Source of the DNA: Enterococcus crotali
GTDB lineage: Bacteria; Bacillota; Bacilli; Lactobacillales; Enterococcaceae
NCBI RefSeq assembly: GCF_000633635.1
Contig: NZ_AYPQ01000002.1
Location: forward strand, 609,643 to 673,642
DNA: 64,000 nucleotides
Direction of reading: 5' to 3'
Positions 831-50,020 of this stretch are shown one piece after another. Under the pieces are notes generated by a model, which saw only the letters and a program-made list of their open reading frames with translations, searched no databases and was not told where the DNA came from. Position numbers and translations under genes: made by a program. Positions within the stretch are counted from its first letter, which is position 1. The number at the start of each line of letters is the position of its first letter.

Positions 831-3800
831 TTATCTTAAATATCGACTCGCACGTTTCATCATATAATCAGCATTTCCGCTAACGACATTTTGCGTTACT
901 TTATTTGAATTGTTAGTTGTATGAGTAATGTTGTTAATAACTGTCGAAACATCGGGGATCCGCATTGACTGAGTATTAAATCTACCTGTCAATGCACTGA
1001 ATGCTCCACGAACATCAAGATTGTTTACTTTATTCATAAAATCAAGCCCAAATGTATGAACTGCAGCTTTGCGCTGTACGAATTCGCCAGGTGTTAACAT
1101 CGCTGGTACAGTATCTGTACCTTTCTTCTTAAAAATACCCGCTAACCCACCAGAAGCATGAAACTCGACTTCGCCACCTTGTGATTTAGTTGTTGCTGCT
1201 TTAACATTACTAAGCTCTTCGTTAATTGCTGTAGCCATTCCTCTGATTCCTTCTTTGAAACCATCAATTAAAGATGTTCCTAGTGTATTTCCTAGTGTGT
1301 TAAGAGGTACAGAAAATTGTGCTCTAGATTCTTCTGTTGTAATCTTGTTAATTGCATCTGTTAGTGATGAAATCATACTTGCTACGCCCTCTGCAAAACC
1401 TGTTTTTAGGTTTTCACCGTAGGTTCTACCAATTCCTGTAAATTCCTCATATTTCAATTTGAGATCTGAAATAAGTGTGTTAACTTTTTCCATAATTGCT
1501 CCTGTTGGATTAATCTCATTGAATTTATTTAACAGACTATTAGCGTAACTAGTTCCAACCACTTCAAAATCTCCTTTTAGCGTTGCTAGTTGCTCGACCA
1601 TATTACTAAAAGCTGTTATACTATTTTGAATGGATTCCACATTACCTATGTCCTTAGTATCAATAATAAATTGTCTGATTTGATTTAAACACTTAGTCAG
1701 AGCTAATAGTTTTTGATTGAGTAATTCTGGATCAATCGAAGAATTTGTTATTTTATCAATTTCTGTCATTAATTTTGTTATTTGTTCTATTTTTGCTTTT
1801 GTAGTTCTGGCAGTTTCTGTAAAGTTTTTATCATTGGATTTAGAATTACCACTTGTGGTACCTTCCTGTAGTGGTCCAATAAATTCAAAATTAAACTGCG
1901 TAAGACTCTGAACTGCACTTTTAAGATGTCCGAGTGTTTTCTTAAACTCCTCTATTTTTTCTTCATTGAATGTAAATCCTAATGCCGTTTCAAGTTGTTT
2001 ACCCAAATTATTCAATTCTGTTATTTTGGCAACTGCATCTGTAACTGTTTTTTGCATTTTTTCCCATTCGGTAAATTTTAATGCTTCGCCATTCTCGTCA
2101 ACTAAAAGTTCTTTTGTTAACACTTCGCGCAATGCAGTTGAAATGTTATTCATTGTATCTCTAAAAGTCTCCAGTTTTCCAGTATCGAATCCAAAGCTTA
2201 GTGCTGTCTTCAACTGTTCTCCCAAAACGTTAAGTCTCCCCAACTTATCAATGGCTTGCTGAACATCTACTTCCATTTTTTCCCAACTAGGAATTTTACT
2301 TGCTTTACCTTTCTCATCTTTAGGAATTAAATCTGCTGTCAATATTTCTTGAATTGCTAATGAAATATTAGCCATGGTCGTCTTGAAATTATCCAGAGCT
2401 GCTGTATCAAAAGTAAAGGTTAGAGCTTTTTCAAGATGAGTAATTAATTGATTGATAAGCCCGGCTTTTTCTACTGTGTCATTTAACGCAGTAGAATCTA
2501 GATTCATATCCAGATCTATTTGTTCAAAATCTTTTATTATATCCTGAATATCATCGAGTTTAGTTTTAATATCACTAAAATTCAAATCTACTTCTTGTAT
2601 TTTATATAGTTCATTTGCAATATTGGCTAGATTGGCTACATATTTTTTGGCCTTTTCTGTAATTTCAGTATCAATATTCCCGCCATCAAAAGCTCGTTTT
2701 ACATCATCAAACCAACCTTTTGTTTGAGTAAAATATTCAAAGGTCTTCTGAATAGATTCGATCTTTGTTTTTAACCTTGCTGGATCTGTTATCTCAGTTT
2801 TTTCAAGTTGTTCAATTGCTTTGGCTACAGAAACTAAATTTCCCACCGCTTCTGCCGCATCTTTTCCAATATTAGTATCCGTTTTTCCTCCATTGAAAAA
2901 TTGGTCGAATTCTTTAAGGAACCCTACTCCTTTTTTCAAGTATTCAAAGACACTTTGAATTTCATTGATTTTCGTTTCAATATTCGCAGGAATCGTAATA
3001 TCCTCAAACTTTTGTAATTCTGTTCCTACTTTCGCTAGCTTGATAACACCTTCTGCTACAACTGCTGTATTCAAAGCGCCAACGGCATTCTTGAATAGAT
3101 CTACAACATTTCCTAGGTTAGCTGCAGTGAAATAACCGATGGCTGTCGCAACTGATTCTATTTTTCCTTTGATGCTTGAGGTATCATCTGGGACTTTTTG
3201 ATCCAACTGATTTAGGGCTTCTGAAACATGCATCAATTCTTCTGCTACTAGAAAGACTGTTGCTAAACCTGCCCCAGCGACCAATGCGCCAATACCCGAA
3301 GAAACCAAGGCACCGACAACTCCGACTAGAACGCTCATGCCTCCGATCGCTATTCCGATATTAGCTAATTTGGCTGCAACATTGGCAATATCATCTGGAA
3401 CTTTTTCATCAATTTGTTTCATTGCTTCGGCTGATTTTGTCAGGAGATTGATCATCTCACCTATTGAAGCAAGACCTGCCAGTGCTGCAAGAGGATTTTT
3501 TTCAGCTAGTTTACCGACTATCCCTACCAGAAGTCCCATTCCACCTAAGGCCACACCCATAGCTAATAATTTGCCAGCAAAACTACCAAAATCACCCGGT
3601 ATTTTTGCCACTATTTGATTCATTGCTTCAGCTGTTTCACCTAATAAACCACTAAGGTCACGGATCATTTTAAAACCAGCTTTAGCGTCTTTAGGGTGGT
3701 CTTTTGCTAATTTACCAGCGATTGCTACTAATACACCCATTCCACCGATTGCAAGACCCATACTCCCTAAACGCGAACCCATTTCTCCTAAATTGGATGG

Positions 3801-5243
3801 AACCTTTGCAGCAATTTGACTCATGGTTTCAGCCGCTTCTTCTAGTAATTTGCCGATTTCTCGGATCATCTGGAACCCTTTTTTCGCTTCTTTGGGATTG
3901 TCTTTAGCCAATTTACCAGCTATAGCTATTAACACACCCATTCCACCAATTGCGATGCCCATACTTCCTAAGCGGGAGCCCATTTCTCCCAAATCGGATG
4001 GCACTTTTGCAGCGATTTGGCTCATCGTTTCAGCTGCTTCTTCTAATAATTTACCGATTTCTCGGATTATTTGGAATCCTTTTTTCGCTTCTTTAGGATT
4101 ATCTTGAGCTAATTTTCCAGCGATTCCTACTAATACGCCCATTCCGGTTATCGCAATGCCCATGCTTCCTAAACGAGAGCCCATTTCTCCTAAATCGGAT
4201 GGCACTTTTGCAGCGATTTGACTCATCGTTTCAGCTGCTTCTTCTAATAATTTACCGATTTCTCGGATTATTTGGAACCCTTTTTTCGCTTCTTTGGGAT
4301 TGTCTTGAGCTAATTGTCCGGCGATTCCTACCAGTACACCCATTCCTACGATAGCAATGCCCATGCTTCCTAAGCGAGAGCCCATTTCTCCTAAATCGGA
4401 TGGCACTTTTGCAGCAATTTGACTCATCGTTTCGGCCGCTTCTTCTAGTAATTTGCCGATTTCTCGAATTATTTGGAATCCTTTTTTTGCTTCTTTGGGA
4501 TTATCTTGGGCTAATTTCCCGGCGATTCCTACCAGTACACCCATTCCTACGATAGCGATCCCCATATTTCCTAAGCGAGCGCCCATTGACCCTAAATCGG
4601 ATGGTACTTTTGTGGCGATTTGGCTCATCGTTTCGGCTGCTTCTTCTAATAGTTTGCCAATATCTCGAATCGTTTTAAATCCTGTTTTTGCTACTTTTGC
4701 ATCGCTACTTGCTAACTTTCCAGCTATCGCTACTAATGCACCCATTCCTACGATAGCGATGCCCATATTTCCTAAACGAGCGCCCATTGACCCTAAATCG
4801 GATGGCACTTTTGTGGCGATTTGGCTCATTGTTTCGGCTGCTTCTTCTAATTGTTTGCCAATATCTCGAATCGTTTTAAAACCCGTTTGGGCTTTTTTTC
4901 CATCGCCACTTGCTAATGCACCAGCTATAACCGCTAAGGTCCCCATTCCTACTATAGCGATCCCCATATTTCCTAATTTCGGCCCAATTTTGCTTAAATC
5001 TGATGGCACTTTATCGTTGACTTCTTTGAGCGCTGTTGCCCCTGATTCTATGGATTTAGCTGCATCTTCTATAAAACGGAATCCTTTAAATTCACTTAGG
5101 CTTTTTTCAAGTTTTTTAACACTTGATTGGACTTTACTTTTCTCTATTTTTAATTGTTTGATTTTACTGTCTATTTTAGAAAGCTGTTTTGCGATTTCTT
5201 CAGAGTTGGATTTCATATCTATTGATATTTTTTCTATTGCCAC
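831..5243 (-). CDS. Tape-measure-like tail protein with 67-residue repeats
   Basis: This 1470-residue protein starts at GTG 5243 behind a strong AGGAGG. Residues 1-60 are a charged coiled coil. From residue 78 there are eight 67-residue repeats (consensus features PSDLG.MG.RLG.MGIAI and LLEEAAETMSQIA, each with a Gly-rich hydrophobic stretch), followed by two degenerate units. Residues 750-1200 are long helical segments with a second, weaker repeat (LTFTFDTAALDNF, LSFGFDTGKLETF, LGFTFNEEKIEEF). The C-terminus has GTDTVPAMLTPGEFVQRKAA, a hallmark of phage tape measures. In the family, length sets tail length and hydrophobic segments support DNA passage. Its place downstream of a tail-chaperone pair agrees, though a plus-strand lipoprotein gene lies between. 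No baseplate (Dit/Tal) gene follows inside the window. Confidence 0.85.
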   Translation of the reverse strand: MAIEKISIDMKSNSEEIAKQLSKIDSKIKQLKIEKSKVQSSVKKLEKSLSEFKGFRFIEDAAKSIESGATALKEVNDKVPSDLSKIGPKLGNMGIAIVGMGTLAVIAGALASGDGKKAQTGFKTIRDIGKQLEEAAETMSQIATKVPSDLGSMGARLGNMGIAIVGMGALVAIAGKLASSDAKVAKTGFKTIRDIGKLLEEAAETMSQIATKVPSDLGSMGARLGNMGIAIVGMGVLVGIAGKLAQDNPKEAKKGFQIIREIGKLLEEAAETMSQIAAKVPSDLGEMGSRLGSMGIAIVGMGVLVGIAGQLAQDNPKEAKKGFQIIREIGKLLEEAAETMSQIAAKVPSDLGEMGSRLGSMGIAITGMGVLVGIAGKLAQDNPKEAKKGFQIIREIGKLLEEAAETMSQIAAKVPSDLGEMGSRLGSMGIAIGGMGVLIAIAGKLAKDNPKEAKKGFQMIREIGKLLEEAAETMSQIAAKVPSNLGEMGSRLGSMGLAIGGMGVLVAIAGKLAKDHPKDAKAGFKMIRDLSGLLGETAEAMNQIVAKIPGDFGSFAGKLLAMGVALGGMGLLVGIVGKLAEKNPLAALAGLASIGEMINLLTKSAEAMKQIDEKVPDDIANVAAKLANIGIAIGGMSVLVGVVGALVSSGIGALVAGAGLATVFLVAEELMHVSEALNQLDQKVPDDTSSIKGKIESVATAIGYFTAANLGNVVDLFKNAVGALNTAVVAEGVIKLAKVGTELQKFEDITIPANIETKINEIQSVFEYLKKGVGFLKEFDQFFNGGKTDTNIGKDAAEAVGNLVSVAKAIEQLEKTEITDPARLKTKIESIQKTFEYFTQTKGWFDDVKRAFDGGNIDTEITEKAKKYVANLANIANELYKIQEVDLNFSDIKTKLDDIQDIIKDFEQIDLDMNLDSTALNDTVEKAGLINQLITHLEKALTFTFDTAALDNFKTTMANISLAIQEILTADLIPKDEKGKASKIPSWEKMEVDVQQAIDKLGRLNVLGEQLKTALSFGFDTGKLETFRDTMNNISTALREVLTKELLVDENGEALKFTEWEKMQKTVTDAVAKITELNNLGKQLETALGFTFNEEKIEEFKKTLGHLKSAVQSLTQFNFEFIGPLQEGTTSGNSKSNDKNFTETARTTKAKIEQITKLMTEIDKITNSSIDPELLNQKLLALTKCLNQIRQFIIDTKDIGNVESIQNSITAFSNMVEQLATLKGDFEVVGTSYANSLLNKFNEINPTGAIMEKVNTLISDLKLKYEEFTGIGRTYGENLKTGFAEGVASMISSLTDAINKITTEESRAQFSVPLNTLGNTLGTSLIDGFKEGIRGMATAINEELSNVKAATTKSQGGEVEFHASGGLAGIFKKKGTDTVPAMLTPGEFVQRKAAVHTFGLDFMNKVNNLDVRGAFSALTGRFNTQSMRIPDVSTVINNITHTTNNSNKVTQNVVSGNADYMMKRASRYLR
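3405..5012 (-). repeat. Tandem 201-bp coding repeats in the tape-measure gene
   Basis: Eight in-frame units of exactly 67 codons (201 bp). The middle units (3 to 6, about 3.8-4.6 kb) are nearly identical in DNA, and identity falls towards both ends. That gradient is expected when unequal recombination homogenises the centre of an array. Confidence 0.85.
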
Positions 5244-6591: not shown

Positions 6592-6903
6592 CTAATCCGC
6601 CAAATCATCATTCGTATAAAACAAGACTGCATACTCTTTCGGCTTCTTAACTTTACGCTTCGTTTCATTTCCAAGCGATTTCCATTCAAGAAAATTACTG
6701 TAACTTTCTTCATTCGCATACTGCCCATATGCCACTAATAATTCAGCAACGCCCCAATCGTCTAAAATAAGATTCGGACGCTGCTTTAAGATTTTCGCGA
6801 CATAATGAGCCATATACGTATAAATATTCAAATTAGCAAAGAATGTTTCCGATTCTTTTTCTACTGAAGTCTCATTTTCACAAGCTTGTCTGTAGATTAA
6901 CCG
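6592..6903 (-). CDS. Tail assembly chaperone, GT-type extension made by -1 frameshift
   Basis: The frame -1 to the preceding chaperone gene is open from the slippery site at 6903-6909 to the stop at 6592. Read through, it adds RLIYRQACENET..., then a helical domain with LILDDWGVAELLVAYGQYANEESYSNFLEW. This resembles the T domain of siphophage gpGT proteins in size, position and its YG.YANE motif. A separate start would need the TTG at 6831, which has no good ribosome-binding site, so expression as a G-T fusion of about 287 residues is favoured. In lambda-like phages gpGT recruits the tail-tube subunit to the tape measure. Gene order here (tube, G, GT, tape measure) fits that role. Confidence 0.72.
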   Translation of the reverse strand, partial: RLIYRQACENETSVEKESETFFANLNIYTYMAHYVAKILKQRPNLILDDWGVAELLVAYGQYANEESYSNFLEWKSLGNETKRKVKKPKEYAVLFYTNDDLAD

Positions 6904-7454
6904 AAAAAAACATCTGCTTCGTTGAAGACTTCTGGATGATTTTCCATAATTTTGTTTAGGTTTTCGATCACAGAGAATGGCAGCATATACTCGCCCATCT
7001 GATCATCGATCCCTAAGAATGTTGCCACCAAATTGTAGATAGCTAGATGAATTTCATCACCTGCGCCTACAAAAACAGATAGTAATTCTTCTTTGCTAAA
7101 TTCTTCCATGTCCCCATTTTCCTTCAACTTATTGAAAAACGGGATAATTTTCATGATCGCATCAACAATTCTTAAATCGGAACGTGGTGTGATCGTTACA
7201 TCTCCAAATTCAACGCTGAACACATAATAAGATCCAACCTCTTTAGCACCTTCTGGCTTTTGCTCAAAATGCGTTTGAGGGACACGGAATTTCACACTAT
7301 AGTCAGCTTTTTTCACTCCGGTTTTATTTGCATCACCGACCACTGATACCTCTTGATCTTTTACCACTGCAAAAGGAGTATCATTTTCATTCGTTTTTTT
7401 CAAATTATTGCTGATCGCTAAAAAGTCAGCGGCTTTCATGCCTTTTTCTGTCAT
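6897..7454 (-). CDS. Tail assembly chaperone, G-type
   Basis: This is a 185-residue protein. The start is ATG 7454 (MTEKGMKAADFLA) behind AGGAGG; the open frame extends further upstream, but only through a non-coding repeat element. It is acidic at the C-terminus and ends ...EADVFFG just past a slippery heptamer. Its order after the probable major tail protein and before the tape measure, with a -1 frameshift at its 3' end, is the classic arrangement of siphophage tail chaperones. No catalytic motif is expected. The assignment rests mainly on context and the frameshift rather than on sequence similarity I can name. Confidence 0.7.
   Translation of the reverse strand: MTEKGMKAADFLAISNNLKKTNENDTPFAVVKDQEVSVVGDANKTGVKKADYSVKFRVPQTHFEQKPEGAKEVGSYYVFSVEFGDVTITPRSDLRIVDAIMKIIPFFNKLKENGDMEEFSKEELLSVFVGAGDEIHLAIYNLVATFLGIDDQMGEYMLPFSVIENLNKIMENHPEVFNEADVFFG
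6903..6909 (-). other. Programmed -1 ribosomal frameshift site (T TTT TTC)
   Basis: In the minus-strand message the last codons of the G-type gene are GTT TTT TTC GGT TAA. The heptamer T-TTT-TTC matches X-XXY-YYZ with correct phasing. The -1 frame downstream has no stop before 6592. Confidence 0.75.
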
Positions 7455-7469
7455 CACTGTTCCTCCTAA

Positions 7470-7940
7470 TTTTAAAAGCGTAATGAGCTGTTTAGTTTCG
7501 ATGAAAAATAGGAAAAAATAGGGATGGCGCTTTTTGCCATAATTATTTTTTATCTTTTTTCCGAGAAACTGGCTCATGTAGCTAGATAAGTTTTAAAAGC
7601 TGAAAGAGCTCGTTCAGCCTTGACTGGAAAATATGAGGGTGACGCTTTTAGTCACAATCATATTTTATCTTTTTCCCGAAAGGCTAGCTCTTGAAGCTAG
7701 ATAAGTTTAAAAGCTGAAAGAGCTCGTTCAGCCTTGACTGGAAAATATGAGGGTGACGCTTTTGGTCACAATCATATTTTATCTTTTTCCCGAAAGGCTA
7801 GCTCTTAAAGCTAGATAATTTTTAAAAGTGTAGCAGGCTTGTTCAGCTCCGACAGAACATATGAAAAATTAACTGAGGTGCTTTTTACCTCATTCAATTT
7901 TATCTTTTTTCCGAGGAGCTAGCCCGCCAAGCTAAATGAT
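7470..7940 (-). repeat. Four tandem copies of repeat family 1 (about 115-120 bp)
   Basis: Copies lie at about 7470-7590, 7591-7705, 7706-7818 and 7819-7940. On the plus strand each begins TTTTAAAAGC and ends near GCTAGATAA. In the transcript (minus) each can form three hairpins: CTAGCT...AGCTAG, an AT-rich stem AAAATATGA...TCATATTTT with inner GTGAC/GTCAC, and GGCTGAA...TTCAGC. Stem arms vary with compensation, so structure appears conserved. The last copy ends directly at the AGGAGG of the chaperone gene. The unit recurs at 9.4, 31.7 and 44.4 kb. Confidence 0.85.
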
Positions 7941-7945
7941 TTTTA

Positions 7946-9268
7946 TTACTCTGCTACACGGTACATTTCAAAGAAGTTGCCGTTTTTATCGCGTTGTACT
8001 GAAATCGTAAACTCAAAAGTCGTTTCTTCGTTATTCACTGTTCCAGGGAATGAAGTGATCAAGACATTGTTATACACATAGTTTTGTTTCACACCATCTG
8101 TTTGTTCTTGTGTAAATGACATACGTACACGACGTGTATCCAATACATCTTCATTTCCAACAAAGTGCTCAACATCCACTTTTTTCGGATAGCTGATTAC
8201 AAGCTCTTTCCCTACTAATGATTTATGGAATAAGATTTTTCCATCTGCTAAAACGATAAATTGTTTTTCGTTGATTTCAACAACTGCTGGTGTATTCACA
8301 CGGTTCAATAGCGCTTCTGTAACATTACAGCTATCAGCGATCGCAGCCGTTGTAAAGGCACATTCATCCATATTCATGTCAGCTAATTGAACATAACCAT
8401 AGTCCACGCCATCAATTGTTGTCGCAGCAACTGCTTTTTCAGCTGTTTGAATCAACCAACCGCTTGTTTGTGTACCTTTAGACATTAGTGGATTTAATTT
8501 CCAATAGTTTGCCGAAGCGCTCTTACCAGTCAAGGTTCTTTCGATGGCAATACTTGTTGCATCATAGCCTGCACCAAAACAACTTGCTTCAACCGGATCA
8601 ACCGTTAATTCACCTGCAAACTCATCAATACAGCCGATTTTAACAACATCATTGATTTCAAAATCTTCAATGCTGTTATATACATAGATAGAAGAGAAAC
8701 CAATCGTAGAAATAGTTCCGCTTTCTGGTGTCACATACATATGGAGGATAATACCACTCTCACTCGCTGACCAACCTGTACCACTACTCGCTTCAGGAAG
8801 TTTAGATAAGTCAATAACAACTGGTTGGAACCCTGCTTCTTGTACCACAATTTGTTTTTGATAAATATCTGAATCTGATTGATTTTGATCTGCAATATCA
8901 GAAATAGTCGTTTCTACATTATAAACTCCAGCTGCTGGGAAATGAACGTAATACGTGATCACACCCGCTACAAATTCTGTTGCATCTGCATTAACTGCAA
9001 AAGACGCACCAGAAGCCGAACCAGCGCTATTCATAACGGTCAATGTTCCTGAGTTTTTACACCCTTCTGCTAAACAATTGAACATGTCTTCCGGTGTATT
9101 GTATACATTATAAGCAGCACTTATTCCGTTAAATTCCATATAATTTTTTGTGTTTACTTTGACACAGCTGTCAATATCCGTTAATACGGCAAAGTCAACT
9201 TCCATTAATTTATTTAATGATTTCATCCCAATTTTAGAAATCAATGTATCATTGCTACATCTTGTCAT
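7946..9268 (-). CDS. Probable phage major tail (tube) protein
   Basis: This 440-residue protein starts at ATG 9268 behind a GGGGGA site. It is rich in Ser, Thr, Val and Asp, has no signal peptide or membrane segment, and looks all-beta. It has a middle section with alternating polar and hydrophobic strands (about 75-200) and a C-terminal strand-rich part ending NNVLITSFPGTVNNEETTFEFTISVQ. The assignment to a tail tube or structural protein comes from its place before the tail chaperones and tape measure. I cannot name a close family. It is longer than a simple tube subunit, so it may carry an added surface domain. Confidence 0.6.
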   Translation of the reverse strand: MTRCSNDTLISKIGMKSLNKLMEVDFAVLTDIDSCVKVNTKNYMEFNGISAAYNVYNTPEDMFNCLAEGCKNSGTLTVMNSAGSASGASFAVNADATEFVAGVITYYVHFPAAGVYNVETTISDIADQNQSDSDIYQKQIVVQEAGFQPVVIDLSKLPEASSGTGWSASESGIILHMYVTPESGTISTIGFSSIYVYNSIEDFEINDVVKIGCIDEFAGELTVDPVEASCFGAGYDATSIAIERTLTGKSASANYWKLNPLMSKGTQTSGWLIQTAEKAVAATTIDGVDYGYVQLADMNMDECAFTTAAIADSCNVTEALLNRVNTPAVVEINEKQFIVLADGKILFHKSLVGKELVISYPKKVDVEHFVGNEDVLDTRRVRMSFTQEQTDGVKQNYVYNNVLITSFPGTVNNEETTFEFTISVQRDKNGNFFEMYRVAE

Positions 9269-9283
9269 TTATAATTCCCCCTA

Positions 9284-9433
9284 TTATTGATTATTTTGAA
9301 CGACACGTGTTGCATCGCGCTCATATCTTCCACCATTTTTTTGGTTTAACATTTGCAATTTTCTTTGAATGAATACTTGTGCATCGACAGTATCCTTCTT
9401 AATAACTTCTTTTGTTTTCTTCTCTTTAGCCAT
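9284..9433 (-). CDS. Small basic protein of the tail module
   Basis: A 49-residue protein (MAKEKKTKEVIKKDTVDA...) starting at ATG 9433 behind AGGAGG. An upstream in-frame extension runs into repeat family 1 and is not used. It is Lys-rich at the N-terminus and Gln/Asn-rich at the C-terminus. It lies 15 bases from the major tail gene and is presumably co-translated with it. The function is unknown. Confidence 0.6.
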   Translation of the reverse strand: MAKEKKTKEVIKKDTVDAQVFIQRKLQMLNQKNGGRYERDATRVVQNNQ

Positions 9434-9448
9434 TTTCTTTCCTCCTAA

Positions 9449-9690
9449 TTTTAAAAGCTGAAAGAGCTTGGTCAGCCTTGACTGGAAAATAGAAAAAAAT
9501 GACTGAGGCGCATTCTGCCTCATTTATTTTTTTCTTTTTCCCGAAAGGCTAGCTCTTGAAGCTAGATAGTTTTAAAAGCTGAACGGGCTCGTCAGGCTCG
9601 AATGAAAAATAGGAAAATATGATTGTGACGCTTTTGGTCACAGGCAGATTTTATCTTTTTTCCGAGAGACTAGCCCTTGAAGCTAGATGA
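9449..9690 (-). repeat. Two tandem copies of repeat family 1
   Basis: Copies lie at about 9449-9569 and 9570-9690. They have the same ends and hairpins as the 7.5-7.9 kb array. Again the transcript-proximal end abuts the AGGAGG of the next gene (start 9433). Confidence 0.85.
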
Positions 9691-9712
9691 TTTTAACTCC
9701 CAGCAGTTTTGT

Positions 9713-9955
9713 TCATCCTTCTTTAAACATTTTTATAGCTTGTCCATCCAAACTATATGTCTGCTCTAACAAGAAATCGCCATCCCGTTCCATAACTTCA
9801 TACATTTCACCTGCATAAAACATTTTTGTTTGTCCGCTTGGTAAAACCATACGTGCTTCACGTTGGAACGTGTGTTTTGACCGTTGTCTGCTGCCACAAG
9901 ATGAACAGCCCGATTTTTTTACTTGATTTTTGATCCCTAAAAATTGGATTTTCAT
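9713..9955 (-). CDS. Small CxxC protein of the tail module
   Basis: An 80-residue protein (MKIQFLGIKNQVKKSG...) starting at ATG 9955 after GGAGGC. It has a single CSSC pair near residue 18, followed by a basic stretch (RQRSKHTFQREAR) and a beta-rich C-terminus. The Cys pair could bind a metal with a partner. The neighbouring 101-residue protein also has one CxxC, so the two may complete a four-Cys site together; that is inference. The function is unknown. Confidence 0.6.
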   Translation of the reverse strand: MKIQFLGIKNQVKKSGCSSCGSRQRSKHTFQREARMVLPSGQTKMFYAGEMYEVMERDGDFLLEQTYSLDGQAIKMFKEG

Positions 9956-9999
9956 TACACAGCCTCCAGTGATTGCCTGATTCTTAGTAAAACTAAGGT

Positions 10000-10305
10000 T
10001 CATTCATCAATAATTTCTACAACTGAGTAGGAGATTTTTTTGATGCGGCCACCACAAGATTTACAAGAACTTTCTGTATACTCGATTCCTAAAGACCTCA
10101 ATTCGTTCGCTAGCGGTTGTGAATAGGGTCTTTCAACCTGAATCTGCTGCAGTGATCGACTAAATACTTTATCATCGCCTAGTTCATATTTCTCACCAGG
10201 CTTTAAACGAACATGACTATAAATTATTACGCCATCTTTTTGACTAGCAACATTTAGTGTCGTTATCGTGTCGATTGCATTAATCAATTTGAAGTACTTA
10301 CTCAT
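10000..10305 (-). CDS. Small CxxC protein of the tail module
   Basis: A 101-residue protein starting at ATG 10305 behind GAGGAA. The first half is beta-rich (GVIIYSHVRLKPGEKYELGDDKVFSR) and the C-terminal third carries SSCKSCGG. The next gene starts 44 bases downstream. Two consecutive small proteins with single CxxC pairs ahead of a major tail gene is an uncommon arrangement. Head-tail connector or regulatory roles are possible. Nothing in the sequence decides between them. Confidence 0.6.
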   Translation of the reverse strand: MSKYFKLINAIDTITTLNVASQKDGVIIYSHVRLKPGEKYELGDDKVFSRSLQQIQVERPYSQPLANELRSLGIEYTESSCKSCGGRIKKISYSVVEIIDE

Positions 10306-24191: not shown

Positions 24192-24346
24192 CTAAAAAAA
24201 GAAGTGAGCGGGGCATGACTCGAAGAGTCATGTCCCGTTCACACATAATCCGGATAAACGGTGAGAGCAAAAGCTCTCCCTTCAAAAATAAGCTAAAATT
24301 CACGAAAAATGTTCTTCAACTTTTTGTGAATCTTAGCTTATTTTTC
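24192..24346 (-). repeat. Repeat family 2, two-stem element (inverted orientation)
   Basis: One stem is GGGCATGACTC/GAGTCATGTCCC near 24207-24236. A long stem AAAAATAAGCTAA...TTAGCTTATTTTT covers about 24280-24343. It shares CCGGATAAACGG and the long stem with copies at 33.3 and 49.9 kb, in reverse orientation. It lies between convergent genes and probably acts as a terminator in both directions. Size and two-hairpin form recall the EFAR repeats described in Enterococcus faecalis; identity to them was not tested. Confidence 0.75.
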
Positions 24347-24350
24347 GGGA

Positions 24351-25483
24351 TTAAACACTTGTCCCATCTTCATTTATCAATAAAGTGTCATACGTACCAT
24401 ATTTCAATAACGTTTCTTGAGATAAAGAAACACCAATTCCCAATCCGTCAGGTACATTAAGTTCGCCATTTTGAATTTCAAAAGGTTCTGTAATAATGTC
24501 CTCGTAGTAATAACGGTCAGAAGCTGAAATATCTCCTGGAAAAGTAAAAATTTTTTGAGAAGCAAACTGTACATTTAAAGCTCTTCCCACACCAGATTCA
24601 AACATTCCGCCTAACCAGACCAGTAATCCCTTTTCTTTGCAGAAATCGACTATCTTCATGGCTTCTGTGATGCCACCTACTCTAGGAATTTTTAAATTGA
24701 TACTCCGACAGCTTCCCAAAGAAAAGGCCAGCTCACAATCTTTAAGCGTCCGAATATTTTCATCTAGACAAATATCTGTTTGCAATTCTTTTTGTAATTG
24801 TGCGTGATCTAGAAAGTCATTCGCTGCAAAAGGTTGTTCAATCATGGCTAAATCATACCCATCTAATTGGAGTAAATGAGGGATATCCTTAATGGTATAT
24901 GCCGAGTTAGCATCCACCATCAGAGGTATATCGGGAAACTTATTTCGGATTACATCAATTGGTTTGAGATCATAACCTGGCCGAATTTTTAATTTAATGC
25001 GTTGGTATCCTGCTGTTACATACTCTGTAATTTGATCCAATAATTTAGCTAGATCAGTCTGGATACCCACACTAACTCCAACAGGAATTTGTGCTCTCGT
25101 TTTGTTAAAATAAGTTTTTAAGCTCTTTCCATTACGTTTAGCATATAAGTCCCAGATTGCCGTCTCAAGCTAGATTTCGCCATTTGATTGCCTTTTACTT
25201 CATCAAAGAGAAACGAGACTTCTTTAGGATGTTGAATTTTTGCATTTTTTAGTAAAGGAATCAAGTGGTTTTCAATGATTATCCGAGCTGTATCAATTGT
25301 CTCTTCTATATAATCCGGCTGTTCAAAGGGAACTAGTTCACCTATACCTTGATTTCCCAATTCATCACTCACTAATAAAAGATCAAAGGCCTTCTCTGTC
25401 AAACGACCGTAACTAGTTTCAAATGGAATCCTTAGAGGCAGTCGAACACGATAACGGTCAATGCGATCAATTTTCAACGACAT
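24351..25483 (-). pseudogene. menC: o-Succinylbenzoate synthase, frameshifted
   Basis: The N-terminal part (MSLKIDRIDRYRVRLPLRIPF, from ATG 25483) is in one frame to MAKSSL. It then goes out of frame at plus 25166, where one extra C/G base restores ETAIWDLYAKRNGKSL and the enolase-superfamily barrel. That part has KLKIRPG (catalytic Lys), VDANSAYT, IEQPF and CLDEN. The restored length is about 377 residues, normal for MenC. The enzyme dehydrates SHCHC to o-succinylbenzoate. It is last in the men operon. The single-base loss suggests consensus error or genuine decay of the pathway. Confidence 0.85.
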
Positions 25484-30895: not shown

Positions 30896-31711
30896 TTATG
30901 GAAATTTAGGAAATTGGTCGAAATCTGGATCACGTTTTTCTTTGAATGAATCGCGTCCTTCTTTTGCTTCATCCATCGTGTAATAAAGTAGTGTTGCGTC
31001 TCCCGCTAATTGCTGAATTCCAGCTAATCCATCTGTATCAGCATTTAAAGAAGCTTTGATCATACGTAATGCAAGCGGGCTTTTCTTCAACATTTCTTCT
31101 GCCCATTCCATCGTGACATCTTCTACTTCGGCTAAAGGTACGACTGTATTGATCCATCCCATATCCAACGCTTCTTCCGCTGTATATTGTTTGCATAAGA
31201 ACCAAACTTCTTTGGCTTTTTTATGACCAACCACACGTGCTAAATAACCTGAGCCGTAGCCGCCATCGAAACTTCCAACATTGGGCCCAGTTTGACCAAA
31301 TTTAGCGTTGTCTGCTGCAATCGTCAAATCACAAACAAGCTGAAGGACATTTCCTCCACCGATCGAATATCCTTTGACCATTGCAATGACTGGTTTTGGA
31401 ATCACACGAATCAAGCGTTGTAAATCTAAAACATTCAAACGAGGAACACTATCTTCCCCAACATAACCACCATGTCCACGAACTTTCTGATCACCACCAG
31501 AACAAAAAGCGTTGTCTCCTGCACCAGTTAAAATAATTACGCCGACATCTTGTTTATCACGGCTGATGTTGAATGCATCAATCATTTCCATAACTGTTTT
31601 TGGTGTAAAAGCATTGTGCACTTGAGGGCGATTGATCGTAATTTTCGCCACTTTACCTTCTTGTTCAAATAAAATTTCATCGTATTCTTTGATCGTTGTC
31701 CAGTTTCTCAT
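30896..31711 (-). CDS. menB: 1,4-Dihydroxy-2-naphthoyl-CoA synthase
   Basis: A 271-residue crotonase-fold enzyme ([16 protein letters not shown], oxyanion segment [42 protein letters not shown]). It closes the naphthoquinone ring from o-succinylbenzoyl-CoA. It is first in the men operon, and its AGGAGG lies directly after two repeat-family-1 units, so those units form its leader. Confidence 0.96.
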
Positions 31712-31729
31712 GAGGAAACCTCCTTATAA

Positions 31730-31915
31730 TTTTAAAAGCGAAACAAATCGGGTAATCCTGTAGAAAATTAGGAAATTGACATTGAAACGCTTTTAGTTTC
31801 ACTGACAATTTATCTATTTTCCTAAGGATTGATTTGTGCAGCTAGATAGTTTAAAAGCGGAACAAGCTGCTTAGCTCTGACAGAAAAATAGGAAATGATG
31901 ACTAAGGTGCTTTTT
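31730..31915 (-). repeat. Repeat family 1 copies in the menB leader
   Basis: A full unit (about 31730-31849) and a truncated one (about 31850-31915). Ends and hairpins match the tail-module copies (TTTTAAAAGCG at the SD side, GCTAGATAG at the far side). The remainder up to 32134 shows no convincing gene. Confidence 0.8.
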
Positions 31916-32134
31916 TCCTAGACACTAACCTGTATAACCAAATTAGTTTTCAATGCTTCTATTATACACAAATATAGAAATTTTAGAATGATAGGCGATT
32001 TAGAGAATAGTGAAAGATTCTATGAAGTAGGACCAGGAAATACGCATTATTGCATCTTTTGCTTTAGAAGAAATCAATAAAATACTGCCGCCAAAGCTAA
32101 ATAAGTAAGAGAATTGGTCAAAGAAATAGGTACG

Positions 32135-33264: not shown

Positions 33265-33432
33265 GGGTCAGAAGTGTTTAACCCCGAGAAATAAGAAGAG
33301 ATTCACGAAAATTGCTCTTCAAATTTTTGTGAATCTCAGCTTATTTCCGAAGGGGTTGCTTCTGATTCCACCGTTTATTCGGATTTAGAGTCCGAAACAA
33401 AACTGATTTTTAGTTTTGTCCCGGACTCTTCT
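33265..33432 (+). repeat. Repeat family 2, two-stem element
   Basis: Stem 1 is long (TCAGAAG...CTTCTGA outside, GAAATAAG...CTTATTTC, then ATTCACGAAAA...TTTTTGTGAAT). Stem 2 is AGAGTCCG...ACAAAACT against AGTTTTGT...GGACTCT (about 33386-33429). It lies between a plus-strand gene and a minus-strand gene that converge. Confidence 0.8.
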
Positions 33433-33441
33433 TTTTGCCTC

Positions 33442-43021: not shown

Positions 43022-44365
43022 TTACGAATTAAGCAAGTTTTTGATTTCCCCAACCTCTTTTTGAATCGTTGGATCTTTTTCCATTAATTGTTGGATTTTT
43101 TCATGAGCATGAATAACGGTTGTATGATCTTTTCCGCCGAATTCTGCTCCGATCTTTGGTAGAGAGTTTTCTGTCATCTCTCTAGAAAGATACATTGAAA
43201 TTTGCCTAGGAACAACGATGGATTTTACACGTTTTTTGCCTTTTAAATCTTTTAATTGGATATGGTAATACTTTGCCACTTCTTCTTGGATTTGTAAAAT
43301 AGATAGGTGATTTTGACTGCCAACGGATTTTAAAGACTTCAAGGCATCAGCGGCTAGACTAGTAGTAATATCTTCACCATTGATTGTCGCAAAAGCTTGC
43401 ACGCGGACTAAAGCTCCTTCTAGTTCTCGAATATTAGAATCGATTTGGCCTGCGATATAACTAAGCGTATCGTCTGGAATCTCCAGTCGTTCGGCATCAG
43501 CTTTTTTCCGTAAAATGGCAATTCGTGTCTCTAAATCTGGTGGTGTGATGTCGACAGATAGACCCCAAGCAAAACGAGAAACCAAGCGTTCAGGAAGTTT
43601 TGGAATATCGTTAGGCGGTCGATCACTTGTTAGTACAATTTGTTTGTTTTCATTATACAAATCATTGAAGGTATGGAAAAATTCTTCTAACGTTGCTTCT
43701 TTTTCAGCCAAAAACTGAATATCATCAACCAACAGCAAATCAACATTTCGATATTCTTTTCTAAACTGTTCTGAATTTTTCGTTTGGATCGAATTGATGA
43801 ATTCATTGGTGAATGTTTCACTACTGACGTATTTTACCTTTGCATCGGGGCGATTTTGCAGCATTTGATGACCAATAGCATGCATCAAATGGGTTTTCCC
43901 CAAACCAACACCACCATAAAAGAATAGTGGATTGTAAATAGAACCAGGATCTTCTGCTACAACTAACGCTGCAGCATGTGCCATTTGATTTCCTTTTCCG
44001 ATAACGAATGTGTCAAAAGAATACTTTGGATTCAATAAAGCCTTTTTCCCATGTTCAGCAATTTTTTCTTGCGTGACAGGGGCTTTTTTTTCTTCCTGAA
44101 CAGGCATTGTTTCTTTTTCACCAGTAACAACAAAATGAGGCATGACTTCAGCACCAGTCAATTTAAAGCCGGTTTCGACGATTTTTGCGGCTAAATTCTT
44201 TTCCCAATAGTCTTTATGAACAGCAGAAGGAACTTCTAACCATAATTGGTTATTTTCCAACTTTAGCGGTTGCGTTGTTTTTATCCAAGCATCAAAACTT
44301 GGCGCAGACAAAACAGATTGGTAAGTATCTTCTAGATCTTTCCAGAAACTTTCCATATCGGGCAT
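43022..44365 (-). CDS. dnaA: Chromosomal replication initiator DnaA
   Basis: A 447-residue initiator. The N-terminal domain is MPDMESFWKDLEDTYQSVLS. The AAA+ domain has Walker A GGVGLGKTH (151-159) and Walker B LLLVDDIQFLA. The C-terminal box-binding helix is FGGKDHTTVIHAHEKI. The start follows AAGGAGG, which in turn follows a repeat-family-1 unit. DnaA boxes lie on both sides of the gene. Confidence 0.98.
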   Translation of the reverse strand: MPDMESFWKDLEDTYQSVLSAPSFDAWIKTTQPLKLENNQLWLEVPSAVHKDYWEKNLAAKIVETGFKLTGAEVMPHFVVTGEKETMPVQEEKKAPVTQEKIAEHGKKALLNPKYSFDTFVIGKGNQMAHAAALVVAEDPGSIYNPLFFYGGVGLGKTHLMHAIGHQMLQNRPDAKVKYVSSETFTNEFINSIQTKNSEQFRKEYRNVDLLLVDDIQFLAEKEATLEEFFHTFNDLYNENKQIVLTSDRPPNDIPKLPERLVSRFAWGLSVDITPPDLETRIAILRKKADAERLEIPDDTLSYIAGQIDSNIRELEGALVRVQAFATINGEDITTSLAADALKSLKSVGSQNHLSILQIQEEVAKYYHIQLKDLKGKKRVKSIVVPRQISMYLSREMTENSLPKIGAEFGGKDHTTVIHAHEKIQQLMEKDPTIQKEVGEIKNLLNS

Positions 44366-44381
44366 ATGGTGACCTCCTTAG

Positions 44382-44500
44382 TTTAAAAGCGGAACAAACC
44401 GCATAATTCTGACAGAAAAATAGGAAAAAATGAGAGTGGCATTTTTTGCCGTAATCAAATTTTGGTCTTTTTTCTGAGAAATAAGCTCGCACAACTAAAT
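44382..44500 (-). repeat. Repeat family 1 copy in the dnaA leader
   Basis: GTTTAAAAGCGGAAC at the ribosome-binding-site side, the AT-rich middle stem (AAAAAATGA...GTGGCATTTTTTGCC), and a degenerate AACTAAAT end. It places the element between oriC and the dnaA ribosome-binding site. Confidence 0.7.
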
Positions 44501-44576
44501 ACAAATTTTTCTATATAAAAAAGCAGAGCAAATATAAATTGATAAGCAAATAGAATTTTAGCATTTTTTTCAAACT

Positions 44577-45005: not shown

Positions 45006-45140
45006 ATGAAAAGAACGTATCAACCAAACAAACGCAAACGTCAAAAAGTTCACGGTTTCCGTAAACGCATGAGCACAAAAAATGGTCGCAACGTATTAGC
45101 GAGCAGACGTCGTAAAGGCAGAAAAGTTATTTCAGCATAA
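45006..45140 (+). CDS. rpmH: 50S ribosomal protein L34
   Basis: A 44-residue, very basic protein, [20 protein letters not shown]..., recognisable throughout and starting behind AGGAGGTGG. It is the first gene to the right of oriC. A terminator follows, so it forms its own transcript here. Confidence 0.98.
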
Positions 45141-45233: not shown

Positions 45234-45242
45234 TTGTGAATC

Positions 45243-45530
45243 ACTACGACTGGCTTGCCCAGAGTAGATGATGAACAATACTTGGCGAACGTAGTGAGAG
45301 AAGTTACCATACTAGTGAATCACTCCACGTCGCTTCGATCTCATCAAACTCTAAGTGCTAAAGCACTAAGAATTGAAGGACTACGACTGGCTTGCCCAGA
45401 GTAGTTGATGAACAATACAAGGCGTGCGTAGTGAGAGAAGTTACCATACTAGTGAATCACTCCACATCGCTTCGATTGCATCAATTTCTAAGTACCAAAG
45501 TATTAAGAATTGAAGGACTAGTAAATCACC
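45243..45530 (+). repeat. Two tandem 137-bp units (repeat family 3)
   Basis: Units start at about 45243 and 45380 with ACTACGACTGGCTTGCCCAG. They share GTAGTGAGAGAAGTTACCAT, ACTAGTGAATCACTCCAC and a variable hairpin (CTAAGTGCTAAAGCACTAAG in unit 1). A partial third start follows. No gene lies between rpmH and rnpA; the rest (45531-45822) is AT-rich and must hold the rnpA promoter. Confidence 0.85.
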
Positions 45531-49854: not shown

Positions 49855-50014
49855 AAGTGTTTAGCTCCGAGAAATAAGCTGGAATTTACGAAAATTGCTC
49901 TTCAAATTTTTGTGAATTCCAGCTTATTTCCGAAGGAGCTGCTTTTTTCTCGCCGTTTATTCGGTTTTAGAGTGCACACCAAAACTGATTTTTAGTTTTG
50001 TCCCACATTCTTTT
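49855..50014 (+). repeat. Repeat family 2, two-stem element
   Basis: Stem 1 is AGCTCC...GGAGCT outside with GAAATAAGCTGGAATT against AATTCCAGCTTATTTC. Stem 2 is AGAGTG...CCAAAACT against AGTTTTGT...CATTCT. It shares the middle CCGTTTATTCGG with the 33.3-kb copy and is between convergent genes. Confidence 0.8.
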
Positions 50015-50020
50015 TTTGAC

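Follow-up and report, generated by a model that had tools for sequence, protein, structure and literature searches.

Small hairpin repeats are common. The pneumococcal families BOX, RUP and SPRITE are found in excess where two genes converge (PMC3049150), a place where they would do the least harm. For BOX, the same source gives counts of 70 upstream of coding sequences and 16 between convergent genes (P 0.0017; PMC3049150). In enterococci, the available part of one report names the EFAR elements as MITEs (PMC3733652), and the available part of another describes Efa-1 of E. faecalis as an intergenic element of 163 bp, formed by a pair of adjacent stem-loops and present in 65 copies (PMC2267715). 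Hairpin MITEs enter transcripts and can alter the fate of the mRNA via RNase III or RNase E, according to the accessible part of a further source (PMC10969869).

In this work, we describe a family of hairpin units located at a fixed distance before ribosome-binding sites and in a single orientation, whose occupied and empty leaders over 22 species amount to a natural experiment. It makes testable the conversion of repeats into parts of 5' leaders, the targeting of Shine-Dalgarno (SD) sequences and the co-regulation of unrelated genes by shared leader hairpins, and provides a clean case for separating RNA-level from DNA-level maintenance of palindromes. No description of repeats docked at SDs was found by title in the open-access literature.

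Repeat Units in the Window

The window, i.e., the whole stretch of 64,000 nucleotides of Enterococcus crotali analyzed here, contained nine copies of the unit, all on the minus strand and distributed over four leaders: four before a gene for a 186-aa protein, two before a 49-residue gene, two before a gene labelled 'menB' and one before dnaA. A sequence-only reading of this DNA had reported nine copies of about 115-120 bp in these leaders; all of them were found, with aligned lengths of about 118-126 nt in the window copies (about 120 nt being typical), and all nine had the same orientation relative to their gene, as that reading had held. Six copies, belonging to two of the leaders, lay inside the span 7470..9690. 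The last unit of each of the four leaders terminated in CTTTTAAA followed by the SD (coordinates checked), in agreement with the earlier statement that the conserved end abuts this sequence. A covariance model (R1) was built from eight of the nine window copies, the degenerate one being excluded. An array was considered docked when its final TTTT was followed, not more than 30 nt further on, by an SD-like motif plus a start codon that opens a frame of 40 codons. The features identified were the following:

7473..7594, minus strand: unit 1, docked at the SD of the 186-aa gene (R1 match of 135.2 bits, aligned)
7592..7709, minus strand: unit 2 of the 186-aa gene array (repeat reading, alignment, R1 match)
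7706..7823, minus strand: unit 3 of the 186-aa gene array (repeat reading, alignment, R1 match)
7821..7944, minus strand: unit 4, upstream end of the 186-aa gene array (alignment, R1 match)
7462..7467, minus strand: SD AGGAGG of the 186-aa gene (sequence reading)
6897 to the start codon at 7454 or 7457, minus strand: 186-aa gene (sequence reading)
9451..9573, minus strand: unit before the 49-residue gene (9284-9433), docked at its SD (alignment, R1 match)
9571..9696, minus strand: second, upstream unit in the leader of the 49-residue gene (alignment, R1 match)
9441..9446, minus strand: SD AGGAGG of the 49-residue gene (sequence reading)
31731..31853, minus strand: unit docked at the SD of the 'menB' gene, 30896-31711 (alignment, R1 match)
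31850..31950, minus strand: degenerate upstream unit of the 'menB' leader (R1 match of 53.1 bits)
31719..31725, minus strand: SD AAGGAGG of the 'menB' gene (sequence reading)
31961..31966, minus strand: -10-like box TATAAT just 5' of the 'menB' array, a candidate promoter element (sequence)
44380..44505, minus strand: unit docked at the SD of dnaA, 43022-44365, with a diverged 5' arm (R1 match of 98.9 bits, alignment)
44373..44379, minus strand: SD AAGGAGG of dnaA (sequence reading)

Unit 4 started just past the stop codon (7946-7948) of a 440-aa gene (7946-9268). The degenerate unit of the 'menB' leader lacked the full hairpin fold, and the TATAAT box next to it was also present in the unit-free orthologous leader of species G012. 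The Pfam scan confirmed DnaA domains in the product of 43022-44365 and assigned that of 30896-31711 to the enoyl-CoA hydratase/isomerase family ECH_1, 'menB' being a label of the sequence-only reading alone. The name 'chaperone gene' given in the same reading to the 186-aa gene was not borne out: its product gave no Pfam match and matched one PHROG of unknown function, its neighbour being a virion structural protein. This gene was present in 9 of 22 Enterococcus species.

Positions 6897-10305 of the window formed a small cluster with the 440-aa virion structural protein and the 186-aa protein of the PHROG of unknown function. Other repeats were also seen. A frame of 1470 aa (831-5243) contained seven copies of a 300-nt stretch with a 201-bp spacing; it matched a PHROG of unknown function and gave a weak match to a tail protein. 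Three copies of a second hairpin-like family of 90 nt were located at 24269-24358, 33272-33361 and 49855-49944, and behind two of them stood a 65-nt repeat with a T run at its end (33371-33435 and 49953-50017). Two tandem copies (88% alike) of another repeat, of 137 bp, occupied 45237-45510, downstream of a small gene (45006-45140), and pieces resembling it appeared fused to some hairpin units elsewhere in the genome (e.g., C2:94373 and C5:281599).

Copies and Docking across the Genome

The sequence-only reading had proposed a genome-wide covariance-model search and an analysis of position relative to start codons. The search gave at least 141 R1 matches at E up to 0.01 in the genome of the window, this number being a minimum, as scoring covered 150 of 2123 first-look candidates; R1 leans toward copies resembling those of the window and, having been built from docked copies, may under-count undocked ones. 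One reverse-strand match of a palindromic copy was dropped, and the 140 matches kept constituted 93 arrays (61 of one unit, 21 of two, nine of three and one each of four and six). By the called genes the arrays were intergenic, except where a small frame was called inside. The unit is thus short, multi-copy and placed between genes, as MITEs are; its extreme ends (TTATCTAGC and GCTTTTAAA) were only partly complementary, though the whole unit is an inverted repeat. The unit had no Rfam match at gathering scores and no match in the phage collection. The one plasmid match, in E. faecalis, was considered as a relative of the unit and discarded, since it falls in a gene near a tape measure gene, outside the unit.

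Seventy-two of the 93 arrays, containing 114 of the 140 units, were docked, their 3' end (GCTTTTAAA) leading directly into an SD and a start codon, whereas none of the 93 was docked in the antisense control, in which the 5' end was read outward. Random intergenic points appeared docked in 884 of 18,360 cases (4.8%) and random points in 352 of 18,600. The copies were therefore not found equally in 3' regions or in both orientations, the outcome that would have spoken against the earlier reading. When the count was restricted to arrays matching at 60 bits or above, 65 of 81 were docked. The position relative to the start of the downstream gene was fixed, as for a cis-regulatory RNA: 50 of the 72 docked arrays had the first base of the SD 5 or 6 nt past TTTT, and 36 had it exactly 6 nt past. 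According to a simple custom gene caller, the next gene was codirectional in 87 of the 93 arrays; three arrays (C2:248283, C5:283445 and C7:26036) were antisense to both neighbours by these calls and two were called convergent, one of them (C4:105465) wrongly, because an SD and a start come after the array. Among the 21 undocked arrays, some continued into another unit-like stretch, three (C1:639744, C2:49748 and C6:31951) had an SD-like sequence outside the definition used, and others were clearly elsewhere, often with a CTTTTC or CTTTTG end and not CTTTTAAA.

The SDs next to units were strong. A full AGGAGG was present in 59 of 79 genes with a unit vs. 71 of 440 other genes over the same stretches, and a TTTAAA-like sequence preceded the SD in 43 of 67 genes with a unit vs. 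8 of 179 others, this second comparison being restricted to strong-SD genes. Conservation faded just past the SD. Twenty-four of the 72 docked arrays began 60 nt or less from a codirectional stop codon. A promoter at a fixed distance upstream of the arrays was not detected, the scores being about equal to those of shuffled sequence, with single cases that look real.

NCBIfam scans covered 40 of the 72 docked genes. Those named comprised mannitol PTS, PotA- and ProV-like ATPases, NadE, ClpB, EF-Ts (tsf), thioredoxin, HslV, CodY, aspartate carbamoyltransferase, PstC, Lgt, a glycerol-3-phosphate dehydrogenase fragment, deoxyribonuclease IV, TrpB, RecG, citrate synthase, aconitase, biotin carrier protein, thiol peroxidase, allantoinase, ureidoglycolate dehydrogenase, FabD and Mfd, and several obtained no NCBIfam name. 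By inspection, no common functional theme was seen among the 40 scanned genes, which is in line with the earlier description of the targets as unrelated.

Orthologous Leaders and Related Genomes

The DnaA proteins of the window and of E. ureasiticus DSM 23328 were 100% identical, and those of several other species were so when rounded; the DNA of the window shared about 84-93% identity with E. ureasiticus DSM 23328, and its dnaA leader matched that of species G019. The dnaA leader of E. ureasiticus DSM 23328 also contains a unit. R1 matches were present in all 22 Enterococcus genomes (from 3 to at least 150 each). Across the family, 50 of 105 genomes, from 7 of 17 genera, had matches with E no higher than 1e-5, those outside Enterococcus being weaker; in eight genomes outside the core species the matches included tandem hairpin units with similar ends. 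The top loci were docked in 22 of 22 cases in 15 other core species, in 2 of 12 in three outgroup Enterococcus species and in 2 of 18 in other genera (with one antisense case among the latter), fractions that are not unbiased since the loci are top scorers of a model built from docked copies.

Leaders were fetched for dnaA (22 species), 'menB' (18), the 186-aa gene (9), tsf, codY, nadE and fabD (22 each), 137 in total, and a profile search was run over 900 nt upstream of each orthologous gene. These leaders contained 136 units in sense and none in antisense, with 0 to 7 units per leader; that of 'menB' had seven in G001 and none in G008. Docked leaders amounted to 69 of 101 in 16 core species vs. 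1 of 36 in the other six (G017, G012, G015, G002, G005 and G016), a split drawn after the result was known; almost all outgroup leaders were empty. In the core, docking occurred in 15/16 leaders for both tsf and 'menB', 11/16 for dnaA, 4/5 for the 186-aa gene, 9/16 for codY, 8/16 for fabD and 7/16 for nadE. G017 is as near as the core species by DnaA (98% identity), so that the missing units there may reflect loss; its tsf and 'menB' leaders resemble unit remnants. Similar tandem hairpin units exist in related genera, where docking was seen at few of the sampled loci, so that docking looks derived.

Before tsf, preceded by what is presumably rpsB from its position, one to four units stood in core species between a terminator-like hairpin region and the SD. 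In the six species without full units, the same gap (L279 and L282-L286) consisted of a terminator-like hairpin, a spacer and the SD. The 186-aa gene leaders of G002, G015, G005 and G016 (L261-L264) were unit-free and seemed by eye to have other inverted repeats in the same gap before the same SD. Some orthologous dnaA leaders (e.g., L217, L218, L225 and L228) were mosaics in which units alternated with a further repeat module, several of these leaders having GAGTTGATGTTGAA and CGTTGTTACC in that module.

In the unit-free orthologous leaders that were read, the SD was already present, e.g., in dnaA of G012 and G017 and in tsf of G012, G015, G002, G005 and G016. The nadE leaders of 12 species had TGGAGG in six unit-free cases and AGGAGG in all those with a unit; G016 and G004, unit-free by the profile search, also had AGGAGG, and G004 retained a unit-like tail. 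From this pattern, units either settle at existing SDs, adding the last A, or bring AAATTA along.

Tandem growth was evident in the genome of the window: comparing 115 near-full-length units of the 140, 48 of 63 tandem units had their nearest relative in the same array, with a mean identity of 0.946. For the 186-aa gene, the counts of relatives in other leaders are unreliable, some of its leaders having entered the comparison twice. The earlier proposal of a mobile or duplicated element stood as regards duplication and dispersal. Mobility may be inferred from the occupied and empty leaders together with the turnover of copy number; eight-base windows at 27 arrays did not match at their own locus clearly more often than in permuted pairs (best z 1.9), giving no clear sign of a target-site duplication.

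Fold and Pairing

The eight window copies folded by RNAalifold into one long hairpin of 30 pairs, 21 of them with compensatory change on both sides, which upheld the claim that the stem arms vary while pairing is kept. Over 38 consensus pairs in 124 units of the genome, 4100 of 4634 cells were Watson-Crick vs. 3222 expected with independent arms. In the sense strand of these units, G-U (106 cells) was less frequent than A-C (180 cells), which on the antisense strand would make G-U the more frequent wobble. Over 141 nearest pairs, single changes led to A-C in 174 cases, to G-U in 111 and to other mismatches in 148, and both-side changes were 2, 20, 77 and 62 by class, from closest to farthest. 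Because G-U was rarer than A-C, the preserved pairing does not alone constitute evidence of a function as RNA; the alignment rows not being independent, the wobble data are read only as lack of support for selection on the sense RNA.

In pairs more than 95% identical, 43 of 2559 paired and 51 of 1308 unpaired columns had changed. Within conserved columns, pairing went with fewer changes: compared with unpaired sites, paired ones had C-to-U and G-to-A each about four times more rarely, A-to-G about six times and U-to-C about two and a half times more rarely. The internal sequence TCGGAAAAAAGATAAA / TTTTCCTATTTTTC was strongly kept across units. The substitution pattern agrees with upkeep of the palindrome in the DNA no less well than with selection acting on the sense RNA, and the evidence that sequences provide for RNA-level selection is weaker than at first sight.

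The predicted probability of the SD being unpaired (mean of 70 leaders) was 0.33 in the native leaders, 0.28 with the array shuffled and 0.53 with the array left out. With the array, predicted access was lower than with the array left out in 53 of the 70 leaders and higher in 17, and it was slightly higher than with the shuffled array in 48; being lower in the one comparison and slightly higher in the other, these values indicate no clear mechanism. Sequestration or opening of the SD by the unit was rejected, as no consistent pairing partner of the SD was found in 62 leaders; alternative small hairpins in the 5' and 3' modules were also rejected, their pairing being no better than predicted by column make-up. 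The loop AAAAGC is complementary to the tail GCTTTT, so that a pseudoknot is conceivable.

Discussion

The repeat pointed out by the sequence-only reading is confirmed as real and is stronger than had been stated, whereas its interpretation as a whole is partly supported. The data probably, though by no means securely, reflect the clade-specific expansion of a BOX/MITE-like non-coding hairpin repeat that duplicates in tandem, with arrays of 1-6 units in the genome of the window and up to 7 in a related species, and settles in sense just upstream of strong SDs. New copies would settle right upstream of such SDs, leaving or completing them, so that even genes generally held to be essential, tsf among them, would tolerate units. 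Each downstream gene's transcript would then carry long hairpins just before its ribosome-binding site. These hairpins would be read through and may alter the processing or decay of the downstream mRNA, long stems being typical substrates of RNase III; the pairing may be maintained at the DNA level, palindromes being repaired by template switching, and not by selection on the RNA. Several data fit this expansion less well: no target-site duplication in the 27 testable arrays; docking so exact and one-way as to be unexpected for a plain parasite; the lower rate of change of paired columns (43/2559 vs. 51/1308), which could be selection on structure; docking of tsf, and separately of 'menB', in 15 of 16 core species, which may point to a function that is maintained; and the three arrays antisense to both neighbours and the two called convergent, one of them wrongly.

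A regulatory role of the unit, in translation or mRNA stability, is possible on these data. In its fullest form, a selected leader hairpin would control the translation or stability of about 70-80 mRNAs as a cis-regulatory RNA regulon, possibly via a binding protein or an RNase, a reading we find rather doubtful. The exact sense docking, the docking in 15 of 16 core species at tsf and likewise at 'menB', the strongly kept internal sequence with compensatory changes, the roughly fourfold rarity of C-to-U and G-to-A at paired sites of conserved columns and the lower predicted SD access with the array (53 of 70 leaders) argue for it, but the sense strand shows no wobble preference (G-U 106 vs. 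A-C 180 cells; single changes 111 vs. 174), the 40 of 72 target genes scanned share no functional theme, copy number varies from 0 to 7 at one leader with absence in some species, and the SD has no consistent pairing partner, nor the unit an Rfam match at gathering scores. It seems improbable that the unit is a 5' stabilizer or processing element, in which RNase III or RNase Y would cleave the stem or its vicinity, leaving a 3' hairpin that would protect the following cistron and, in operons, make it independent of the preceding one. The 24 of 72 docked arrays close to a codirectional stop codon, the units in the gap before tsf and the predicted stems (38 consensus pairs, a length sufficient for RNase III) agree with such processing; the alternative small 3' hairpin, however, is not kept beyond column make-up, and the lack of wobble preference in the sense strand weighs here too. 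Less probable still, units could act as transcription terminators or attenuators, as might be suggested by their strong stems followed by CTTTT and by the few copies that lie away from starts or 5' of promoter-like sequence and have CTTTTC or CTTTTG as their tail. Docked units depart from the layout of an intrinsic terminator (GC stem and long T run): the T run has four bases, usually followed by AAA, docked copies pass from CTTTTAAA into the SD, tsf lies downstream of one to four units, and termination would not need docking. That docking arises by chance or as an artefact of the alignment or the gene caller is scarcely credible: the caller was a custom one and miscalled some starts, but none of the 93 arrays docked in antisense, the null was 4.8% and the top loci of 15 other core species were docked in 22 of 22 cases.

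Beyond the expansion of a non-coding hairpin repeat favoured above, we offer tentatively, as a bolder possibility, that the unit is a mobile leader cassette homing to SDs. Its end would recognize or build the SD (AAATTAGGAGG), and its one-way insertion before dozens of unrelated genes (tsf, dnaA, codY and fabD among them) would impose a shared post-transcriptional influence on them, an ordinary intergenic repeat having been turned to this use in one Enterococcus clade.

Comparison with Known Systems

Like the cis-regulatory leader RNAs (riboswitch-like, Rfam), the unit occupies a leader position beside the SD and has a covarying stem; it differs from them in having no Rfam match and no wobble preference and in its tandem multiplication and turnover. 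NEMIS/Correia and ERIC resemble it as hairpin MITEs present in transcripts (PMC10969869); by description they belong to other bacteria, and the available part of that source mentions no exact one-way docking at SDs (PMC10969869). EFAR and Efa-1 are, as in the parts of the reports cited above, enterococcal folding repeats like this one, and a relation to them is possible; by description, and not by sequence, Efa-1 (163 bp, two stem-loops) is set apart from the unit (about 120 nt, one long hairpin). As to BOX of Streptococcus pneumoniae, the available text presents it as equally short, strongly folding, multi-copy, intergenic and modular, and able to sit in leaders and be transcribed (PMC3049150). 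There, boxB is repeated inside one element (boxA - variable boxB - boxC), whereas here the whole unit of about 120 nt is repeated, a distinction of layout and not of sequence. In contrast with the enrichment of BOX between convergent genes given in that text, the opposite arrangement was found here, with 72 of the 93 arrays docked, the next gene codirectional in 87 of the 93 and two called convergent.
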